Shown: positions 33,027-40,650 of the stretch, piece after piece
Position numbering within the stretch: the first letter of the stretch is position 1
Layout of the letters: every line of letters begins with the position of its first letter
From: Clostridiales bacterium
Lineage (GTDB): Bacteria; Bacillota; Clostridia; Peptostreptococcales; Anaerovoracaceae
Direction of reading: 5' to 3'
Assembly: GCA_012513435.1 (NCBI GenBank)
Contig: JAAZCE010000026.1
Span: forward strand, 1 to 64,000
DNA length: 64,000 bases
Notes under the pieces: generated by a model
Database searches by the model: none
What the model was told of the DNA's origin: nothing
What the model saw: the letters and a program-made list of their open reading frames with translations, nothing else
Made by a program: the position numbers and the translations under genes

Positions 33027-34295
33027 TTACAGCAATTTTTCTTGGGTTTTTTTTGCAATAAGGCCTTTCAACTCATCTCTCGATAGGGATTCTAAATTAT
33101 CAAAGGTAATATCAGCGGCTGATTCATAAAGCGGCAGCCGTTTTTTCCCCATTTCCTTTAGAGCAGATAGCCCCGCATAAAGGGGTCTGCCGCCTGTAGC
33201 AAGACTTTCGATAGGCCTACGTATATATATTATCAAGCCGTTCTGCTTAAGGGCCTCCAGATTTTCTCTGCGCAGAACCACTCCGCCTCCTGTGGCAATA
33301 ATCAGGCTACGCTGTTTGCCAAGCTCTGTGGCCGTCTTGGTCTCGCGGGCGCGGAAGCCCTCTTCCCCTTCCTTAGCAAAAATTTCGGAGATAGTCATGC
33401 CTGCGGCCTTGATAATCTCCTCATCCATGTCCACAAATGCCTTGCCTGTTTTTTCCGCAAGCAGTCTGCCTATGGTCGTCTTGCCGGACCCCGGCATACC
33501 GATAAAAACGACATTTTGCATTTGCCCTTCCAGCTTCCTTATTATCCTCTCGTTTTCCCTGATGAAGGCTCCTGCGGTTCCGAGAAAATATCCGGCCGCG
33601 GCAGTTGCCTGCGCTACCAGCATGGGAAGACCATTGGATAATTTCAAGCCTAGCTCTTCCGCCTCAAGAAGCAGGGCTGTCTTAAATGGATTGTATATGA
33701 CATCGATTACACCGCTGCAATTTGGAAAATCCTTCAAAGAGATTATCTTCGCCATAGTGTCGGGAAAGGTTCCCACAGGTGTGGTGTTCACTATAATATC
33801 TATTGCCTCGGCAATATCAGGCAAGTCTTTATATGAAATGCATCTCTCCTGCCCCCTGCGGGATGCGATAAGTACTCTGCCAGCCCCCATATCCCCTGCA
33901 GCCTTTTGCACCATTAAAGATGTTCCGCCAGAGCCAAGAACAAGAACATTTTTATGGGCAAAATCTATGTCTGCCCGGTCAGCGGCATAGAGAAAGCCTT
34001 CGTAGTCTGTATTGTGGCCTATGAGCTTGCGGCTACCTGCGTTTTCCCTGCTCCAATACAACGTATTGGCTGCTCCTATTTCCCTGACTAAATCAGATAC
34101 TTCGTCACAAAACGGTATGACATCCTGCTTATAGGGTATAGTCACATTGAGTCCGCCAAAATTACGTCCGGCGACAAATTCCGGCATTTCATCAGCAGAA
34201 AGGCTGAATAAATCATATTCGTATTTCCCTAGAGACTCATGTATCTCCTTGGAATAGCTGTGTGCTAAAGGTTCTCCAATCAAACCGTATCTCAT
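33027..34295 (-). CDS. aroEK: Fused shikimate dehydrogenase - shikimate kinase
   Basis: One 422-residue chain combines two consecutive shikimate-pathway steps. Residues 1 to about 255 are AroE: SYSKEI for substrate binding, LNVTIPYK with catalytic K56, GHNTDYEG with D96, and the nucleotide motif LGSGGTS. Residues about 261-422 are AroK with P-loop GMPGSGKT (266-273), the acidic VDMDEE segment, TGGGVV and the GRPLY lid. Dehydroshikimate is reduced with NADPH and then phosphorylated. It is the last gene of the aro operon, 31 bases after pheA. Confidence 0.96.
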   Translation of the reverse strand: MRYGLIGEPLAHSYSKEIHESLGKYEYDLFSLSADEMPEFVAGRNFGGLNVTIPYKQDVIPFCDEVSDLVREIGAANTLYWSRENAGSRKLIGHNTDYEGFLYAADRADIDFAHKNVLVLGSGGTSLMVQKAAGDMGAGRVLIASRRGQERCISYKDLPDIAEAIDIIVNTTPVGTFPDTMAKIISLKDFPNCSGVIDVIYNPFKTALLLEAEELGLKLSNGLPMLVAQATAAAGYFLGTAGAFIRENERIIRKLEGQMQNVVFIGMPGSGKTTIGRLLAEKTGKAFVDMDEEIIKAAGMTISEIFAKEGEEGFRARETKTATELGKQRSLIIATGGGVVLRRENLEALKQNGLIIYIRRPIESLATGGRPLYAGLSALKEMGKKRLPLYESAADITFDNLESLSRDELKGLIAKKTQEKLL

Positions 34296-34326
34296 ATTTC
34301 GCCTCCTGTCAGATTCGTGTATAGTT

Positions 34327-35478
34327 TTAAATGACTTCCGTATACGATCCTAAGAACAGGAAGGTCTCCGGCCTATTCTCAAGTTCACTGAGCAAATTGA
34401 TAAGCTCCTGAGAGTATACTGATGCTTCCAAATCGAAGTAGAACATGAACTGGAAGTCACTTCCCGGAATAGGCCTTGATTCCAGCTTAGTCAGGTTGAT
34501 GCCCAGTGCGGCGAACTTGGCGATAGTATGGTAAAGGGAACTCGGTACGTGAGGCAGTGAAAGTATCAGGCTTATCTTGTCAGCTCCTGGATATATTTCC
34601 ATCTTCTCTGAAATGCAGATGAATCTGGTGTAGTTGTTGTCGCTTAATTGTATATGTTTTTTGAGCAGTTCAAGACTATACAAGTCGAGGCATTCCTTGG
34701 AGGCAATGGCGGCTACATCGCTCCTATCGCTTTCTGCCACCATTTTAGCAGCCAGCGCCGTGTTTTCGCAAACGGTTGTCTTCATATTTTTAAGACCCTT
34801 GAGAAATTTTCCGCACTGGCCGATCGCCTGCTCGTGAGAGAAAATCTCTTTGATGTCGGATATCTTTGTGCCCGGTTTTGCCATGAGATTATGGCTTATT
34901 CTAAGGCGTATGCTTCTGGCAATATGAAAGTTATAGTTCTGCATCAGGTCATAAACAGTATCTACTGAGCCGTAGGAGCTGTTTTCGATAGGAAGAATAC
35001 CGTATTGACAGAGTCCTTTTCCCACGGCATTGAATACGCCCTCGAAGCTGTTGAAATACACTATGTCAGGAACCGGGAAGAGCTTTTCACAGGCAGCCTG
35101 GGAATATGAGCCTGCAACGCCCTGACATGCCACTACTGCCTTTTTCGGAAAAATATTAGGTGTCTCTTCAAGAGCTTTAGCGATTCGCTCAGCCAAATCT
35201 GACTTCCTTGCAAGAAAATTATTCTGGCACGACCTGCTGGCGTCGAATATGGTATTGAACAGCAGACGTGCATATCCGTCAAAGGGCTCGCCTATTTCCT
35301 CGGAAATTCTGTGCAAAATTTCTTTTTCCCGTTTATCGCTTAGTACAGGAAGACCATTCTCCTGTTTGTACTTGGCAATTTCCAAGGACGTTTCCATACG
35401 CTCCTTAAAAAATTCAATGATTCTCGAATCAATCCTATCTATCTCGGTTCTCATTTTGTCCAAATTCAATTCTGTCAT
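34327..35478 (-). CDS. pheA: Bifunctional chorismate mutase / prephenate dehydratase
   Basis: PheA converts chorismate to phenylpyruvate. The 383-residue protein has an AroQ chorismate mutase domain (about 1-90, IDRIDSRIIEFFKERM), a prephenate dehydratase domain (GVAGSYSQAACEKL, PIENSSYGSV, SHEQAIGQC and the NNYTRFI motif) and a C-terminal ACT domain with ESRP, which normally binds phenylalanine for feedback inhibition. Its start overlaps the aroC stop by 4 bases. Confidence 0.97.
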   Translation of the reverse strand: MTELNLDKMRTEIDRIDSRIIEFFKERMETSLEIAKYKQENGLPVLSDKREKEILHRISEEIGEPFDGYARLLFNTIFDASRSCQNNFLARKSDLAERIAKALEETPNIFPKKAVVACQGVAGSYSQAACEKLFPVPDIVYFNSFEGVFNAVGKGLCQYGILPIENSSYGSVDTVYDLMQNYNFHIARSIRLRISHNLMAKPGTKISDIKEIFSHEQAIGQCGKFLKGLKNMKTTVCENTALAAKMVAESDRSDVAAIASKECLDLYSLELLKKHIQLSDNNYTRFICISEKMEIYPGADKISLILSLPHVPSSLYHTIAKFAALGINLTKLESRPIPGSDFQFMFYFDLEASVYSQELINLLSELENRPETFLFLGSYTEVI

Positions 35479-36569
35479 TTCTGTACCTCCATAATAGAAT
35501 CCAAAATTCCAAGTGCCAGAGCAGCTTCAACTATTGGAACAGCTCGTACCACTACGCACGGGTCATGTCTTCCCCTGATAATAAGCTTAGTGTTTTCCTT
35601 TTTATCTAAATCAACGGAATCCTGCTCTATCCCTATAGACGGTGTCGGTTTAAATGCCAGGCGGACTATAAGGGGCATTCCTGTAGTGATGCCTCCCAGT
35701 ATTCCTCCGTGATTGTTGGTTCTTGTCCTGACATCATTACTGTCAAAGTAAAAAGGGTCGTTGTTCTCAGAGCCGTACATTTGGCAGGCTTTGAATCCCG
35801 CGCCAAACTCCACGCCTTTGACTGCAGGAATACCGAAGAAAATAGGTGCTAAAACGCTTTCAAGGCCGTCATACATAGCACCTCCGATTCCTGCCGGAAC
35901 ATCCAGAGAGCAGACCTCGACGATGCCGCCTACAGAGTCATTACATTTCTTAGCTGCCAGGATTTTTTTTGTCATTTCTATCTTGGCGTCTTCCGAAATA
36001 ACTGCCATATCCTTTTCTTTCAGGGATGTCAGCAGCTCCGGGGAAACATTTACCGGATTAAAGGGGATATCCTGGGCCTCGGCCACAGAGTAAATATGAG
36101 CTCCAATTTCTATACCTTGTTTTTTCAAGAGCTGCATGGCGATGCCTCCTGCTATGCAAAGAGGGGCTGTCATTCTCGCGGAAAAAGGTCCGCCTCCCGC
36201 CATGTTCAAGCTGTCGCCATAGCGTATACATGCTGTAAAATCAGCGTGTCCCGGACGCGGTACAGACCTTAGCTTCACGTAGTCCGCAGAACGGGTATCG
36301 GTATTTTTTATTTCCAGAGAAATAATATCCTCCGTTACTACAGCTTGGTCTGTTAGCGTAAGCCCTTTTACGGGCAGAGGCAAATCCGGCTCTTTTCTAC
36401 CTGTCGCCAGCGGACTGCTGCCCGGTGCCCGCCGCTTCAAAAATGCAGCAAGCTCCTTCATATCTATTTGGGTTCCCCGGGGAAGACCTGCTATGTCCAC
36501 GCCTATGGCTGGTTCATGTGAACCGCCCCATATAGAAACCTTAATATTTTTTCCTATAGTAGTTCTCAT
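35475..36569 (-). CDS. aroC: Chorismate synthase
   Basis: AroC makes chorismate from EPSP using reduced FMN. The 364-residue protein starts with GKNIKVSIWGGSHEPAIGVDIAGLP and has RPGHADFTACIRYG, GGGPFSARMTA and NNHGGILGGITTGMP, all family signatures. It overlaps aroA and pheA by 4 bases each, indicating tight translational coupling. Confidence 0.97.
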   Translation of the reverse strand: MRTTIGKNIKVSIWGGSHEPAIGVDIAGLPRGTQIDMKELAAFLKRRAPGSSPLATGRKEPDLPLPVKGLTLTDQAVVTEDIISLEIKNTDTRSADYVKLRSVPRPGHADFTACIRYGDSLNMAGGGPFSARMTAPLCIAGGIAMQLLKKQGIEIGAHIYSVAEAQDIPFNPVNVSPELLTSLKEKDMAVISEDAKIEMTKKILAAKKCNDSVGGIVEVCSLDVPAGIGGAMYDGLESVLAPIFFGIPAVKGVEFGAGFKACQMYGSENNDPFYFDSNDVRTRTNNHGGILGGITTGMPLIVRLAFKPTPSIGIEQDSVDLDKKENTKLIIRGRHDPCVVVRAVPIVEAALALGILDSIMEVQK

Positions 36570-37861
36570 TTGCCTGATTCTCCAGTCTTATATACTTCGC
36601 CTCCGAGGGACGCAAAATCATTAAAAAAATCAGGATAGGATTTTTTCACAGCCTCTGCGCCTTTGATAATTACCGGGGTTTGACATCCGCAGGATGCAAC
36701 GGCAGCGGCCATTACGATGCGATGGTCATTGTATCCCTCTGCTTCACCGCCCTTTAAGGAAGTCAGCCCTGTTATGGAGAGGCTTTCGCCGCCGTAGGTT
36801 ATATCCGCGCCAAGCTTCAAGAGAAAGTTGAATACTGTTTCCAGCCTGTTGGATTCTTTTATCTTTAGTCTACCCGCGTTGGCTATTATCGAAGAGCCCT
36901 TTGCAAGTGACATGACGGAGGCCAAGACAGGAACAATGTCGGGGGTTTGGGCTACGTTTACCTCCATAGCATGTAGGACATTGCCGCGACAACATATCTC
37001 CATCGATGCTACATCATCGTTATCTGTTATGCTGATTTCAGCGCCCATGTCTTCCAGCACTCCTACAATCTCCTTATCTCGCTGTGATGAACTTAAAGAA
37101 AGGCCGCGGCAGGTAACGTCTCCGCCAAGAGCTCCACAGGCCAGCCAAAAAGCAGCATTAGACCAGTCTCCCTCTATTGCCATATTATCAGGCTCCATGT
37201 AGCGTTGATTGCCTTTTATCTCATATATCTTGAATCCCTTTCGGGATTTGCTTTCCTTTATCTCTATGCCAAAATCTCGCAGGACATCTAAGGTCAAATC
37301 TACATAACCTGCGGATTCCAGCGTCGTTGTAAGCTCTAGGAGACTGTCGCCATCAAGAAGTGGAAGAGCGAGCAGCAGGCCTGATATGAATTGAGAGCTT
37401 ATGTTGCCGGCAAGGCTATATTCTCCCGGCTGCAGCCTGCCTGCTATAGTACATATTTCCTTATATTTATCACTGACCTTCTGTTTACCGTTTCCCGGAT
37501 AGAATATGCACCCGTGGCTTTCCATTTCCTCTTTTAGGGGAGAGAGGGGTCTATGGGGCAGCTTGCCTGTGCCCATAAAAATCGCCTCCTCTTTTAAAGC
37601 CATTGCCACCGGCATGATGAATCTCAAGGTGGAACCGCTCTCCCTGCAGTCCAGAAATGGCATTTCCTTATCCAGCTGAACCAAACAGTTTTTGGTGGCC
37701 TCAATGTCCTCTGAAAAAGCTGGTATCATCAGGGCATCCTGCTTATTCTGCCCCTGAAGCTGAGCCAGCTTCTGAGCTATAAGCACTCTGTGAGCGTGAG
37801 ATTTTGAGGGAATGGCATCTATGGTGCCTTCTAATTTTGTTGGAATTATTTTTATATTCAT
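36566..37861 (-). CDS. aroA: 3-phosphoshikimate 1-carboxyvinyltransferase (EPSP synthase)
   Basis: AroA transfers enolpyruvate from PEP to shikimate 3-phosphate. The 431-residue protein shows SKSHAHRVLIA, RESGSTLRFIMPVA, KLPHRPLSPL, GDWSNAAFWLA and NDHRIVMAAAVA, and both lobes are complete. The segment between tyrA and this gene contains a remnant of aroB. GAAAGGAC precedes the ATG at 37861. Confidence 0.96.
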   Translation of the reverse strand: MNIKIIPTKLEGTIDAIPSKSHAHRVLIAQKLAQLQGQNKQDALMIPAFSEDIEATKNCLVQLDKEMPFLDCRESGSTLRFIMPVAMALKEEAIFMGTGKLPHRPLSPLKEEMESHGCIFYPGNGKQKVSDKYKEICTIAGRLQPGEYSLAGNISSQFISGLLLALPLLDGDSLLELTTTLESAGYVDLTLDVLRDFGIEIKESKSRKGFKIYEIKGNQRYMEPDNMAIEGDWSNAAFWLACGALGGDVTCRGLSLSSSQRDKEIVGVLEDMGAEISITDNDDVASMEICCRGNVLHAMEVNVAQTPDIVPVLASVMSLAKGSSIIANAGRLKIKESNRLETVFNFLLKLGADITYGGESLSITGLTSLKGGEAEGYNDHRIVMAAAVASCGCQTPVIIKGAEAVKKSYPDFFNDFASLGGEVYKTGESGK

Positions 37862-37883
37862 TGATACAGTCCTTTCAGTATTG

Positions 37884-38009
37884 TTACAGACCGCTAGCTA
37901 TAAAATTTCGCAAATTCAGTCCGCTTATATACCTGCCCCCTTGTGCAAGCAACCTTGGCTTCATAAGTATGTCGTATTTTTTTGATGCAGAAGCCGAAAT
38001 CTTTATCAT
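37884..38009 (-). pseudogene. aroB: Remnant of 3-dehydroquinate synthase (aroB), 41 codons
   Basis: Directly after the tyrA stop codon (TAA then ATG, no gap) a 41-codon frame reads MIKISASASKKYDILMKPR, then LLAQGGRYI. This looks like the first strand and turn of AroB (roughly basic-residue, SKKYD(V/I)LIG, LLxxxGxxI). The frame stops at 37884, where an intact AroB would have about 350 residues. aroB is commonly placed between tyrA and aroA in clostridial operons, which supports the reading. An internal deletion is the likely cause. The identification rests on about 30 residues. Confidence 0.6.
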
Positions 38010-38849
38010 TTAAAAAACCTCTCCGTCAATCAGCACCTTCTTTTCACGGCCGTCCTTCAATAGCTCCCTAAGGGCATGACTGTCCTCTGCCTTTATGGCA
38101 TCCCTGTACTTTTTAAGATTGTCAATCAATGTATCTATTTCATTTGTAAGATTATCCGAGTTTTCAAGGAAAAGCTCTGTCCACATATCTTCATTGAGCT
38201 TGGCAACTCTGGTCAGGTCCTTGTAGCTGCCTGCGGAAAATCCCATATGCTCCTGGGCTGTCGGACTCTTGATATATGCGTTAGAAACAACATGAGCCAG
38301 CTGGGATGTAAAGGCTATTTTCCTGTCATGCTCTTCCGGCGTTGCTATTTGTATATTTGTAAAGCCTATGGCCGTAAAGAGAGCCTTCAGCGTTTCAATG
38401 CTTTCTATAGGGCCTCTGGTGGTAGTAAAGACCATGGAGGCATTGTTAAAGAGAGACTCCTTTGCATAAGTGAAGCCTGAATGCTCCAAGCCTGCCATAG
38501 GATGTCCTCCTACGAAGAAAAAGCCCTGTTCTTCAGCAAGAGGAATCAACTCGTCGCAGATGATACCCTTGACCCCGCAACAGTCTATAAATATAGCTCC
38601 CTTTTTAAAAAGGTGGCAGTGAGCCTCTACATAATCAATGGTATTCTTAGGATAAAGTGCTGCAATTATTATATCGCACTGAGACAGTAGCTCATCCGTC
38701 AGGGGCTGCTCAATGGCATCCACCAGTACGGCTTTTTTCACTACCTGAGGCGAAATATCCGTGCCGTATACCGTGTTATCCGTATTTTGGCTTATAGCTT
38801 TAGCAAGGGACCCACCTATCAGGCCAAGCCCCACTATTCCTATTTCCAT
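38010..38849 (-). CDS. tyrA: Prephenate dehydrogenase
   Basis: TyrA oxidatively decarboxylates prephenate to 4-hydroxyphenylpyruvate for tyrosine. The 279-residue protein has the NAD motif VGLGLIGGSLAKAI at residues 5-18, GGHPMAGLEHSGF and TSQLAHVVSNAY, and an all-helical C-terminal dimer domain. It has no ACT domain. It lies 10 bases after aroF and ends exactly at the aroB remnant. Confidence 0.96.
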   Translation of the reverse strand: MEIGIVGLGLIGGSLAKAISQNTDNTVYGTDISPQVVKKAVLVDAIEQPLTDELLSQCDIIIAALYPKNTIDYVEAHCHLFKKGAIFIDCCGVKGIICDELIPLAEEQGFFFVGGHPMAGLEHSGFTYAKESLFNNASMVFTTTRGPIESIETLKALFTAIGFTNIQIATPEEHDRKIAFTSQLAHVVSNAYIKSPTAQEHMGFSAGSYKDLTRVAKLNEDMWTELFLENSDNLTNEIDTLIDNLKKYRDAIKAEDSHALRELLKDGREKKVLIDGEVF

Positions 38850-38859
38850 AATATCTCTC

Positions 38860-39870
38860 CTAACCTCTGTATGCCACAGGTCTGATTTTGCTTACCGCCT
38901 CCATCACATCGGCAAAGGCTTCCGGAGTGAGAGACTGTGCGCCGTCGCAAAGTGCGGCAGCGGGATTGTTGTGCACCTCTATCATCAAGCCATCTGCACC
39001 GGCTGCAGTTGCTGCCATGGCCATAGGCTTAACAAGATGCGCGATGCCCGTTGCGTGGCTAGGGTCTACAATAATTGGCAAATGGGTCATGGTTTTTAAA
39101 AGTGGGATGGATGCCAAATCCAAAGTGTTTCTTGTAGCTGTTTCAAAAGTCCTTATACCTCGTTCACAGAGGATTATCCGTTCATTGCCGCCGGCCATAA
39201 TATATTCGGCACTCATAAGCAGCTCCTGAAGAGTGCTGGAAAGCCCTCTCTTGAGAAGTATTGGCTTGTCCATGCGCCCCAGCTCTTTCAGTAACTCGAA
39301 GTTCTGCATGTTTCTTGCTCCCACCTGTATAATATCTACGTTCTCAAAAAGCGGCAGATGAGAAATATCCATGACCTCAGTAACGATAGGAAGCCCTGAC
39401 TTCTCCTTGGCTTCCAGCATAAGCTTGATGCCTTCGTCTCTCATGCCCTGAAAAGCGTATGGTGAGGTTCTCGGTTTGAATGCGCCACCTCTGTAAAGGC
39501 CTGCGCCTGATTTTTTAACCTCTTGGGCCACCAGACATACCTGTTCCTTTGACTCTACAGAGCAAGGGCCTGCGATAACCTGGAAGCTGCCTCCCCCTAT
39601 CTTGATATCATCCGTAATCTCTACGACAGTATCCTCAGGGTGGAATTTTCTGTTTACGTTTTTGTATGGCTCCTGAACACGTTTTACCATCTCTACTATA
39701 TCAAGAGCGTTTATCAAGTCGCTATCCACTGAAGCAGTATCGCCCACAAGGCCCATTATGGTTCTTGACTTTCCCTTGCTGAAGTGAATGTCCAGCCCCA
39801 TGCTCTTTAGCCATGACACTAAATTATCCAATTGTTTCTTATCCGGGTTGTCCTTTAATACGACTATCAT
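38860..39870 (-). CDS. aroF: DAHP synthase, type I-beta
   Basis: This enzyme condenses PEP and erythrose 4-phosphate, the entry step of the shikimate pathway. The 336-residue protein has an N-terminal ferredoxin-like regulatory domain (about 1-75) and a KDO8P-synthase-like barrel with VIAGPCSVES, GGAFKPRTSPYAFQG, QVGARNMQNFELL, LLKRGLS and DPSHATG. It is the first structural gene of the aro operon, preceded by AGAAGG and by a 266-base leader with an attenuator. Confidence 0.97.
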   Translation of the reverse strand: MIVVLKDNPDKKQLDNLVSWLKSMGLDIHFSKGKSRTIMGLVGDTASVDSDLINALDIVEMVKRVQEPYKNVNRKFHPEDTVVEITDDIKIGGGSFQVIAGPCSVESKEQVCLVAQEVKKSGAGLYRGGAFKPRTSPYAFQGMRDEGIKLMLEAKEKSGLPIVTEVMDISHLPLFENVDIIQVGARNMQNFELLKELGRMDKPILLKRGLSSTLQELLMSAEYIMAGGNERIILCERGIRTFETATRNTLDLASIPLLKTMTHLPIIVDPSHATGIAHLVKPMAMAATAAGADGLMIEVHNNPAAALCDGAQSLTPEAFADVMEAVSKIRPVAYRG

Positions 39871-39920: not shown

Positions 39921-39953
39921 AAAAAACTCCGCAAGTGAATTTCACCTACGGAG
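39921..39953 (-). terminator. Transcription attenuator ahead of the aromatic operon
   Basis: On the minus strand a 13-pair stem (CTCCGTAGGTGAA with TTCACTTGCGGAG, two wobble pairs) at 39927-39953 is followed by six U residues (39921-39926). It lies between the leader peptide and aroF, 51 bases before the aroF start, so it would stop transcription before the structural genes. Confidence 0.88.
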
Positions 39954-39992
39954 AGCTCTTTGACAACTTGGTTTTAATCAGTAACAGACAAG

Positions 39993-40079
39993 CTATCTTA
40001 ATGCAGCGAAATCCACCTTACCGCTAAAGAACGTAAAGTAAGTATAAAAGTATTCAGCTGCAAACATCTTGTTTAACAT
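39993..40079 (-). CDS. Phe/Tyr-rich leader peptide of the aromatic operon
   Basis: The 28-codon frame reads MLNKMFAAEYFYTYFTFF and then SGKVDFAALR. It has six Phe and three Tyr codons, eight of them within the 13 codons from 6 to 18. The ATG at 40079 has GAGG 8 bases upstream, about 57 bases after the predicted transcript start. A strong intrinsic terminator follows 40 bases after its stop. This is the classical layout of ribosome-mediated attenuation (like pheL of enterobacteria), fitted to an operon that makes Phe and Tyr. The peptide has no Trp codon. Confidence 0.85.
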   Translation of the reverse strand: MLNKMFAAEYFYTYFTFFSGKVDFAALR

Positions 40080-40142
40080 AAGTCTGTCCTCTAATCTAAA
40101 CTTGAGCTGCGAATTCATTTAACACACTGCTCATTTGCTTGG

Positions 40143-40171
40143 ATTGTAACACTTTAATCAGGCAATGTAAA
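40143..40171 (-). promoter_or_regulatory. Promoter of the aromatic amino-acid operon
   Basis: On the minus strand TTTACA (40166-40171) and TACAAT (40143-40148) are exactly 17 bases apart. Transcription would start near 40136, giving a leader of about 266 bases. Confidence 0.75.
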
Positions 40172-40241: not shown

Positions 40242-40565
40242 TCAGACCATATTCAAATACGCACTAAACACTTTTTTTGCCCTTTCATAGGTGGCTCTAC
40301 CAAATAAAATACGCGGGCCATCTACTAGGAATATGGAGTTCCCGGCCATTACATTTATTTTATCCATGTTTATTATAAAGCTCCTGTGACAACACATAAA
40401 CCGATTGTCCAGCGATGGTATCAGCTTGGAAAATGTGCCGTAAAACTCGATTTTCCCGTGAACCGTATGGGCTGTTATCTTTCGCAGCTCCTTCTCCATA
40501 AATATGACTTCCTCAGGTCTTAACGCATGAAGCTCCCCTCGCTTCCTCACTACAATCCGTTTCAA
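40242..40565 (-). CDS. LytTR DNA-binding domain protein
   Basis: The protein is almost only a LytTR domain (about 107 residues): RIVVRKRGELHALRPEEVIFMEKELRKITAH, SKLIPSLDNRFMCCHRSFIINMDKI and a C-terminal RATYERAKKVFSAYL. There is no receiver or membrane domain. No ATG is available in front of the domain. I chose the TTG at 40565 because AGAGGGGG lies 7 bases upstream. A TTG at 40586 is the alternative. It follows rpoZ by 85 bases and may be co-transcribed. Its target is unknown. Confidence 0.8.
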   Translation of the reverse strand: MKRIVVRKRGELHALRPEEVIFMEKELRKITAHTVHGKIEFYGTFSKLIPSLDNRFMCCHRSFIINMDKINVMAGNSIFLVDGPRILFGRATYERAKKVFSAYLNMV

Positions 40566-40650
40566 ATCAAAACCCCCTCTCTGCAAAATAATTATTTCAC
40601 AAGAAAAGGGGGAATTTTGTCGAAATTTGTTGTATTTTGATGTTTTTTTG

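Follow-up and report, generated by a model that had tools for sequence, protein, structure and literature searches.

The DNA stretch analysed here, 64,000 nucleotides long and called the window below, contains an operon for aromatic amino acid synthesis that begins with aroF, the gene of the DAHP synthase, and the question is how entry into this operon is controlled. In Firmicutes, for which T-box RNAs are a textbook feature, such operons are commonly under T-box control. The leader upstream of aroF, which lies on the minus strand from 40171 to 39921, was read directly, and a sequence-only reading had suggested that it senses Phe and Tyr by leader-peptide attenuation instead of a T-box. Indeed, conserved codons, a terminator, an antiterminator that excludes it, covariation and the absence of a T-box support this proposal, and we put the probability at roughly 0.9 that the leader controls transcription by ribosome-mediated attenuation, with charged tRNA-Phe and tRNA-Tyr as the signal.

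On rereading, the TTTACA-N17-TACAAT promoter claimed earlier was present, with a TG before the second hexamer; a promoter scan of 2 kb returned 6 promoter-like sites, compared to 3.6 in shuffled sequences. Transcription would be expected to start near 40136. The 28-codon frame with its ribosome-binding site was the same as described before, with nine Phe/Tyr codons, eight of them at codons 6 to 18 (Table 1). Start, frame and ribosome-binding site are common to the seven near relatives compared, and an alternative in-frame ATG further upstream has no support from them. Among all frames of 8 to 60 codons on both strands of the window, the leader frame is the sole case with at least 8 Phe/Tyr in 13 codons. 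The terminator had been described as a 13-pair stem with six U residues; the six T residues are there, but the stem has 12 pairs. From the terminator to the ATG of aroF there are 50 nt.

Table 1. Features of the aroF leader and the downstream operon in the window
Feature	Position	Strand	Basis or remark
Promoter-like site TTTACA-17-TACAAT, extended -10 (TG)	40143..40171	-	consensus match only
Ribosome-binding site of the leader peptide, GAGGA	40087..40091	-	inside a 17-pair helix (40101-40081 with 39990-39970)
Leader peptide frame, 28 codons, MLNKMFAAEYFYTYFTFFSGKVDFAALR, stop TAG	39993..40079	-	start, frame and ribosome-binding site shared with seven near relatives
Phe/Tyr run, codons 6-18, eight Phe/Tyr codons, proposed sensor	40026..40064	-	
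Segment 1, TTTGCAGCTGAATA, codons FAAEY, candidate protector arm pairing with segment 2	40051..40064	-	covariation partial
Segment 2, AGGTGGATTTCGCTGCA, codons KVDFAA, antiterminator 5' arm	40002..40018	-	folding, shuffles, covariation
Post-stop stretch TGTCTGTTACTGATTAAAACC, pairs with the leader ribosome-binding region	39970..39990	-	1/100 shuffles as good
Segment 3, CGTAGGTGAAATTCACT, antiterminator 3' arm, shares bases with the 5' arm and loop of the terminator	39934..39950	-	
Intrinsic terminator: 12-pair stem, 3-nt loop, then six T	39921..39953	-	
aroF, DAHP synthase, first operon gene	38860..39870	-	NCBIfam
tyrA, aroA, aroC, pheA (chorismate mutase-prephenate dehydratase), aroE-aroK fusion	33027..38849	-	NCBIfam

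The gene order aroF-tyrA-aroA-aroC-pheA-aroEK given by the sequence-only reading agrees with NCBIfam, in which tyrA, aroA, pheA and both halves of aroEK were called by E-value, below the curated cut-offs of the best models. The genes aroE (shikimate dehydrogenase) and aroK (shikimate kinase) form one fused frame at the end of the operon (33027-34295). Directly upstream of the leader promoter lies a frame of 114 amino acids (40242-40586) with a weak NCBIfam match, 33.8 bits and below the cut-off, to the C-terminal part of AgrA, a LytTR domain.

The antiterminator, which had not been identified by eye, was located by comparison with near relatives as a pairing of segment 2 with segment 3 that excludes the terminator. 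AGGUGGAUUUCGCUGCA (codons 21 to 26) pairs over 15 to 16 bp with the 5' arm and the loop of the terminator, and it also pairs with the FAAE codons before the Phe/Tyr run. Within segment 3, GGTGAAATTCAC occurs only once in the window. Three near-invariant blocks are found across the near relatives: TTTGCAGCTGAATA (FAAEY) before the run, GGTGRATTTYGCTGCA (VNFAA or VDFAA) after the run and GCAGGTGAAATTCAC in the 5' arm and loop of the terminator. The middle block is complementary to both outer blocks, and each of the three pairings is possible in the window leader and in all seven near relatives compared (L002-L007 and L009, the set being formed without L008 because of its different arms), with energies of -10.1 to -15.3 kcal/mol for segments 1 and 2, -15.0 to -22.7 kcal/mol for segments 2 and 3, and -16.0 to -20.2 kcal/mol for the terminator. 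Thus, FAAE and VNFAA have the appearance of a conserved peptide but coincide with RNA arms.

If the leader is a regulatory element of aroF, it should be kept in related genomes, and a comparison of related leaders had been proposed as a check. We collected 190 regions upstream of DAHP synthase genes, namely, 30 best matches fetched from a search of 197 genomes of the same family, 80 more stretches picked among the matches that this search listed, including second copies within one genome, and 80 named loci. In 131 of the 190 regions, there was a frame in which 13 codons include at least 6 Phe/Tyr, compared to 14 on the opposite strand and 7 in dinucleotide-shuffled sequences; at a threshold of 8 of 13, the numbers were 87, 1 and 0. 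The frame was followed by a hairpin and a T-run in 124 of the 131 cases, the other 7 having no terminator by the rule used. Most of the relatives thus keep the Phe/Tyr codons and the terminator, but the frame was absent from 59 regions. In 102 of the 124 leaders, the antiterminator, taken as the pairing of the stretch from the run to the terminator with the 5' arm and loop of the latter, was better than at least 95 of 100 shuffles (11 of 124 in the control with a reversed terminator arm), and in 77 it reached the level of at most 1 in 100; 22 leaders had no significant antiterminator. These numbers refer to regions that are not independent, two pairs being identical and others nearly so; after merging at ≥85% identity over 200 nt, 172 clusters remained, of which 114 had the frame and 108 the frame and the terminator, with an antiterminator in 87 of the 108. 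At each locus, the frame densest in Phe/Tyr was used for these counts and for those given below on the 124 leaders; this choice makes Phe/Tyr easier to find but gives no such advantage to terminators or antiterminators, and the 59 loci dropped at this step were joined by the 7 dropped for the missing terminator. Both Phe and Tyr are present in the run in 123 of the 124 aroF leaders. Similar aroF leaders were also seen in metagenome-assembled genomes titled Thermoguttaceae, Planctomycetia, Oligosphaeraceae, Lentisphaerae and Treponema (L122, L146, L155, L158, L159 and L171), which may reflect either transfer of the operon or wrong binning.

Covariation was analysed in a MAFFT alignment of 34 leaders selected by hand from the 124. 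Nine pairs of the antiterminator were scored; the inner four were left aside, as were the two outermost, separated from the rest by a gap in the alignment. In these nine pairs, 94.1% of the cells were formed, 6 of the 9 pairs had changes on both sides, and the covariation score was 0.356, compared to 0.236 after shuffling (0 of 500 shuffles as high) and at most 0.105 when the arms were slid. The terminator gave 94.5% of cells, both-side changes in 10 of 12 pairs and a score of 0.351 (0.170 in the control). For the protector pairing of segments 1 and 2, 78.3% of the cells were formed and 4 of 11 pairs had changes on both sides; 268 of 500 shuffles reached this number of pairs and 9 of 500 equalled the covariation score. 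The protector pairing was seen in 42 of the 124 loci (12 of 124 in the control), and in the window leader taken alone it did not rise above shuffles (23 of 100 as good). We are thus less sure of the protector than of the other two pairings.

When a ribosome footprint of 31 nt (an assumed size) was masked on the nascent RNA of the window leader, the probability of the antiterminator rose from 0.01 without a ribosome to 0.77 for a stall in the run; for a ribosome at the stop codon, it was 0.00. Over the 124 leaders, a probability above 0.5 was obtained in 34 without a ribosome, in 93 with the stall in the run and in 9 with the ribosome at the stop codon. When the A site was moved codon by codon in the window leader and the seven relatives, values above 0.5 were confined to positions up to and including the final codon of the run, and no value beyond it was higher than 0.2. 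The scan of the window leader is patchy and less clear than those of its relatives: codons 4, 5 and 14 to 16 in the A site exceeded 0.5, and only 2 of the 9 Phe/Tyr codons fall inside. Equilibrium folding of the full transcript of the window leader gave no switch, the terminator outweighing the antiterminator under every mask. Therefore, the switch must be kinetic and decided during transcription.

From these data, the following mechanism is by far the most probable. When both amino acids are plentiful, the ribosome would cross the run, reach the stop codon and cover segment 2, and the terminator would form before aroF. When Phe or Tyr is scarce, low charging of the cognate tRNA would stall the ribosome in the run, where it would cover segment 1; segment 2, freed by the stall, could then pair with segment 3 before the 3' arm of the terminator is made, and the polymerase would enter the operon. 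In an untranslated leader, the pairing of segments 1 and 2 and a closed helix at the ribosome-binding site would make termination the default. This helix had been noticed earlier as a 6-base pairing of ACAGAC with GTCTGT; the pairing is indeed present and is part of a 17-pair helix (-17.2 kcal/mol, 1 of 100 shuffles as good) that covers the ribosome-binding site of the leader. Basal pairings within 5 of 100 shuffles were found in 34 of the 124 leaders (8 of 124 in the control), including 4 of the 8 near leaders, and in 30 of the 34 the pairing covers GGA, AGG or GAG of the binding region. The basal helix may serve to close the leader when no ribosome is present.

The same parts could be explained differently. 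TnaC is a case of peptide-dependent ribosome arrest with Trp, and in the same way free Phe or Tyr, or its absence, could arrest the ribosome by means of the peptide in the exit tunnel, with the RNA arms responding. The residues FAAEY and NFAA, conserved beyond Phe and Tyr in the near relatives, would fit such an arrest, but these non-aromatic residues coincide with the RNA arms, Phe and Tyr interchange and the length of the run varies. Moreover, the antiterminator arm starts at a median of 13 nt after the run with a standard deviation of 8.5 in the 102 leaders with a supported antiterminator, whereas its position relative to the stop codon has a standard deviation of 16.4. Thus, the arm is tied more to the run than to the end of the peptide. 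In 18 of the 102 leaders it starts at or after the stop codon and hence cannot be a feature of the peptide; the pairing is kept apart from it. Peptide arrest is therefore very unlikely. An even smaller chance is given to the idea that the frame is incidental or encodes a small hydrophobic protein and that the terminator just ends a transcript or lets a fixed fraction read through. Chance frames rich in Phe/Tyr do exist at lower density, as seen from the opposite strand at 6 of 13, but a frame of 8 of 13 is unique in the 64 kb, the frame, the terminator and the exclusive antiterminator are conserved together and with covariation, and a covariance model of the leader (see below) lies before aroF or pheA in 27 of the best 30 of its 46 places.

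Since Firmicutes commonly use T-boxes and the genome has three T-box matches elsewhere, one of them over the cut-off, a T-box, a riboswitch or a protein-bound leader could also control the operon, with the frame being secondary. However, a search with 4227 Rfam families, T-box included, gave 0 matches at the gathering score in the 64-kb window, neither RF00230 nor any other, in line with the T-box absence claimed before. In 18 loci from other families of the order, none of the three T-box matches precedes the DAHP synthase gene, since one follows it (L246) and two are on the opposite strand (L255 and L260); the 40 loci scanned of the 59 that lack the frame had no T-box before the gene either. 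A T-box or other Rfam element at the operon was thus rejected after the scans of the window and the 58 other loci, and we consider control by any of these three kinds of leader barely credible. One of the matches below the cut-off elsewhere in the genome precedes a substrate-binding protein that resembles TrpX. The genus is poor in T-boxes, with 2 to 5 matches per genome in 13 genomes compared to 7 to 26 in eight genomes of the other families of the order. If leader peptides had replaced T-boxes throughout the genome, they should be found at other amino acid genes as well. Within about 1.5 kb of hisG (12 loci), ilvB (14 loci) and pheS (14 loci, some of them gene pieces) in the genus, no real-looking leader peptide was found when 4 His, 8 Ile/Leu/Val or 4 Phe in 13 codons were demanded together with a ribosome-binding site and a T-run; one Phe match in the pheS scan (L225) was judged to be due to chance. 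These scans would miss a leader placed at a greater distance, ahead of a different first gene; within their range, they give no support to the idea that leader peptides have taken the place of T-boxes throughout the genome. For the aroF leader itself, attenuation by translation of the Phe/Tyr run remains the reading that we prefer.

The run of the window leader contains Phe and Tyr but no Trp. The N-terminal domain of anthranilate synthase component I was detected in 0 of 13 genomes of the genus and in 14 of 14 controls, which fits a leader with Phe and Tyr and without Trp, as would suit an organism in which Phe and Tyr are synthesized and Trp is not. In the 18 loci from other families of the order, at least 7 Phe/Tyr/Trp in 13 codons were found in 13; a terminator was present in all 13, Trp in 12 and an antiterminator within 5 of 100 shuffles in 6. 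Trp stands inside the run (for example, FWGFYFSAGYF) in L246, L248, L251, L252, L254-L256 and L258-L262. The best antiterminator arm begins 37 to 48 nt after the run in 11 of the 12 Trp-containing leaders. These leaders may respond to all three aromatic amino acids; they represent a related idea with a layout different from that of the window leader.

A covariance model (R1), built from the 34 leaders without any part of aroF, was used to search 391 genomes of the class. Matches at E ≤0.001 were obtained in 42 genomes at 46 places, and the best 30 of the 46, of which only one, the window's own, was a training sequence, lie directly before aroF in 24 cases, before pheA in 3 and before neither in 3. 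In the latter group, the model matched both strands at L289 and matched L291 only in part. In one case, L277 (G478:C32:20473-20628), the model of the aroF leader found, at an E value of 1.5e-9, a leader that precedes leuA. In its peptide MKSQFSAQLNLLNLALLLQG, the Phe/Tyr run is replaced by one rich in Leu (7 Leu in 13 codons), followed by TTTGAGTTTTGCTGA and a terminator with CAGCGGAACTCGCTG, and the antiterminator arm is similar. The leader looks as if the codons had been exchanged. In the pheA leaders L285, L288 and L290, the run contains Phe but no Tyr. Of 51 genomes from the order of L277, 6 had a match, including one more aroF (L293), two pheA-like genes (L294 and L296) and one partial match at neither gene (L295). 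The leaders of L294 and L296, of the pheA type, have Phe and Tyr mixed; thus, the match of codons at pheA is not strict. The 25 genomes of the window's genus gave 14 matches, one of them partial, with 11 genomes giving none, and 16 genomes from the other families of the order gave no match; some of these assemblies are incomplete, and both searches were run with stricter filters. Partial matches were also seen in G464:C6, G504:C9, G524:C119 and G604, on both strands of one place in three genomes, and they are perhaps a palindromic bidirectional terminator rather than a leader.

Thirty leuA loci were fetched, and at least 5 Leu in 13 codons together with a terminator were found in 3 (L297, which is the place of L277, L298 and L300), a count that in effect excludes L299 and L320, where the gene start is misplaced. 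Only L277/L297 of these was found by the aroF model. An Rfam scan of 18 leuA loci (L297-L314) gave a T-box in 2, L306 and L307. One may tentatively propose, at slightly less than even odds, that Clostridia carry a homologous, re-programmable attenuator cassette that stands in for T-boxes at these genes, with the RNA (GAAUUUYGCUGC / GCAGUGAAAUUC) kept and the codons exchanged for each gene: Phe and Tyr at aroF, Phe at pheA, Leu at leuA and perhaps Phe, Tyr and Trp in the families that make Trp. Such copies would show one attenuator re-used for another amino acid.

Taken together, translation of a Phe/Tyr run very probably controls the first gene of aromatic amino acid synthesis in many Clostridia, including genomes from the gut and the rumen. 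The leader model can serve as a marker for this regulation in uncultured genomes, and the located arms allow a direct test. The principle is old. In the pheL/pheA and pheST attenuators of enterobacteria, a Phe-rich leader peptide is combined with protector, antiterminator and terminator arms and an aromatic gene downstream. Like leaders of the trpL/pheL type, the aroF leader has a frame (by predicted translation) with its own ribosome-binding site that is rich in codons for the products of the pathway, an intrinsic terminator that separates this frame from the first gene, an antiterminator that excludes the terminator and whose 5' arm would be freed by a stall in the sensor, as judged from folding and comparison, and sensor codons that suit the pathway (aroF, pheA and leuA). 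The aroF leader and pheL/pheA or pheST are alike in the Phe-rich leader, the antiterminator and terminator arms and the downstream aromatic gene, and a candidate protector arm can be drawn here as well. The aroF leader differs in its mixture of Phe and Tyr codons, in its place before aroF at the head of an aro-tyrA-pheA operon, in its occurrence in a Firmicute and in matching no leader family of Rfam.

Other leaders of this sort have been described or predicted. The uORFC-13-1 motif (PMC8632094), with 24 representatives from Acholeplasma and environmental sequences and at least one Phe codon before aroF, shares the promoter, the ribosome-binding site, the uORF with Phe codons, the terminator and aroF. 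As described in the accessible part of that paper, by which alone the two were compared, it comprises neither Clostridia nor a Tyr run nor an exclusive antiterminator. Two candidate uORFs with Phe and Tyr before shikimate genes were reported in a study of five genomes, Clostridium novyi among them (PMC6429828); they resemble the window leader in this, although the text at hand names neither the genome nor a mechanism, and by their description they may belong to the same family. At the DAHP synthase gene aroF of Corynebacterium glutamicum, an attenuator with Phe-Tyr-Phe was predicted (PMC4046766), which differs in belonging to an Actinobacterium and in having three aromatic codons, as far as the accessible text goes. 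Classical leader-peptide attenuation with His codons at hisS/hisZ and his operons of Firmicutes is presented in the parts of two papers at hand as new for, or limited to few, Firmicutes, so that in these sources leader-peptide attenuation in this phylum appears as an exception, mainly at histidine genes (PMC2965389 and PMC9413887); it differs in codons and genes from Phe/Tyr at aroF. A survey of 50 genomes gave eight uORF candidates, none for Phe/Tyr in the text covered (PMC11109978), and further related literature is found in PMC1262725 and PMC4833913. A Clostridia-wide leader family, its antiterminator and codon-exchanged copies were not encountered in a literature search that lay mostly outside subscription journals. 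Phe/Tyr uORFs at shikimate genes were thus already predicted in print, and what appears new is a Clostridia family of a known kind of attenuation, with its RNA arms located and common among Clostridia.
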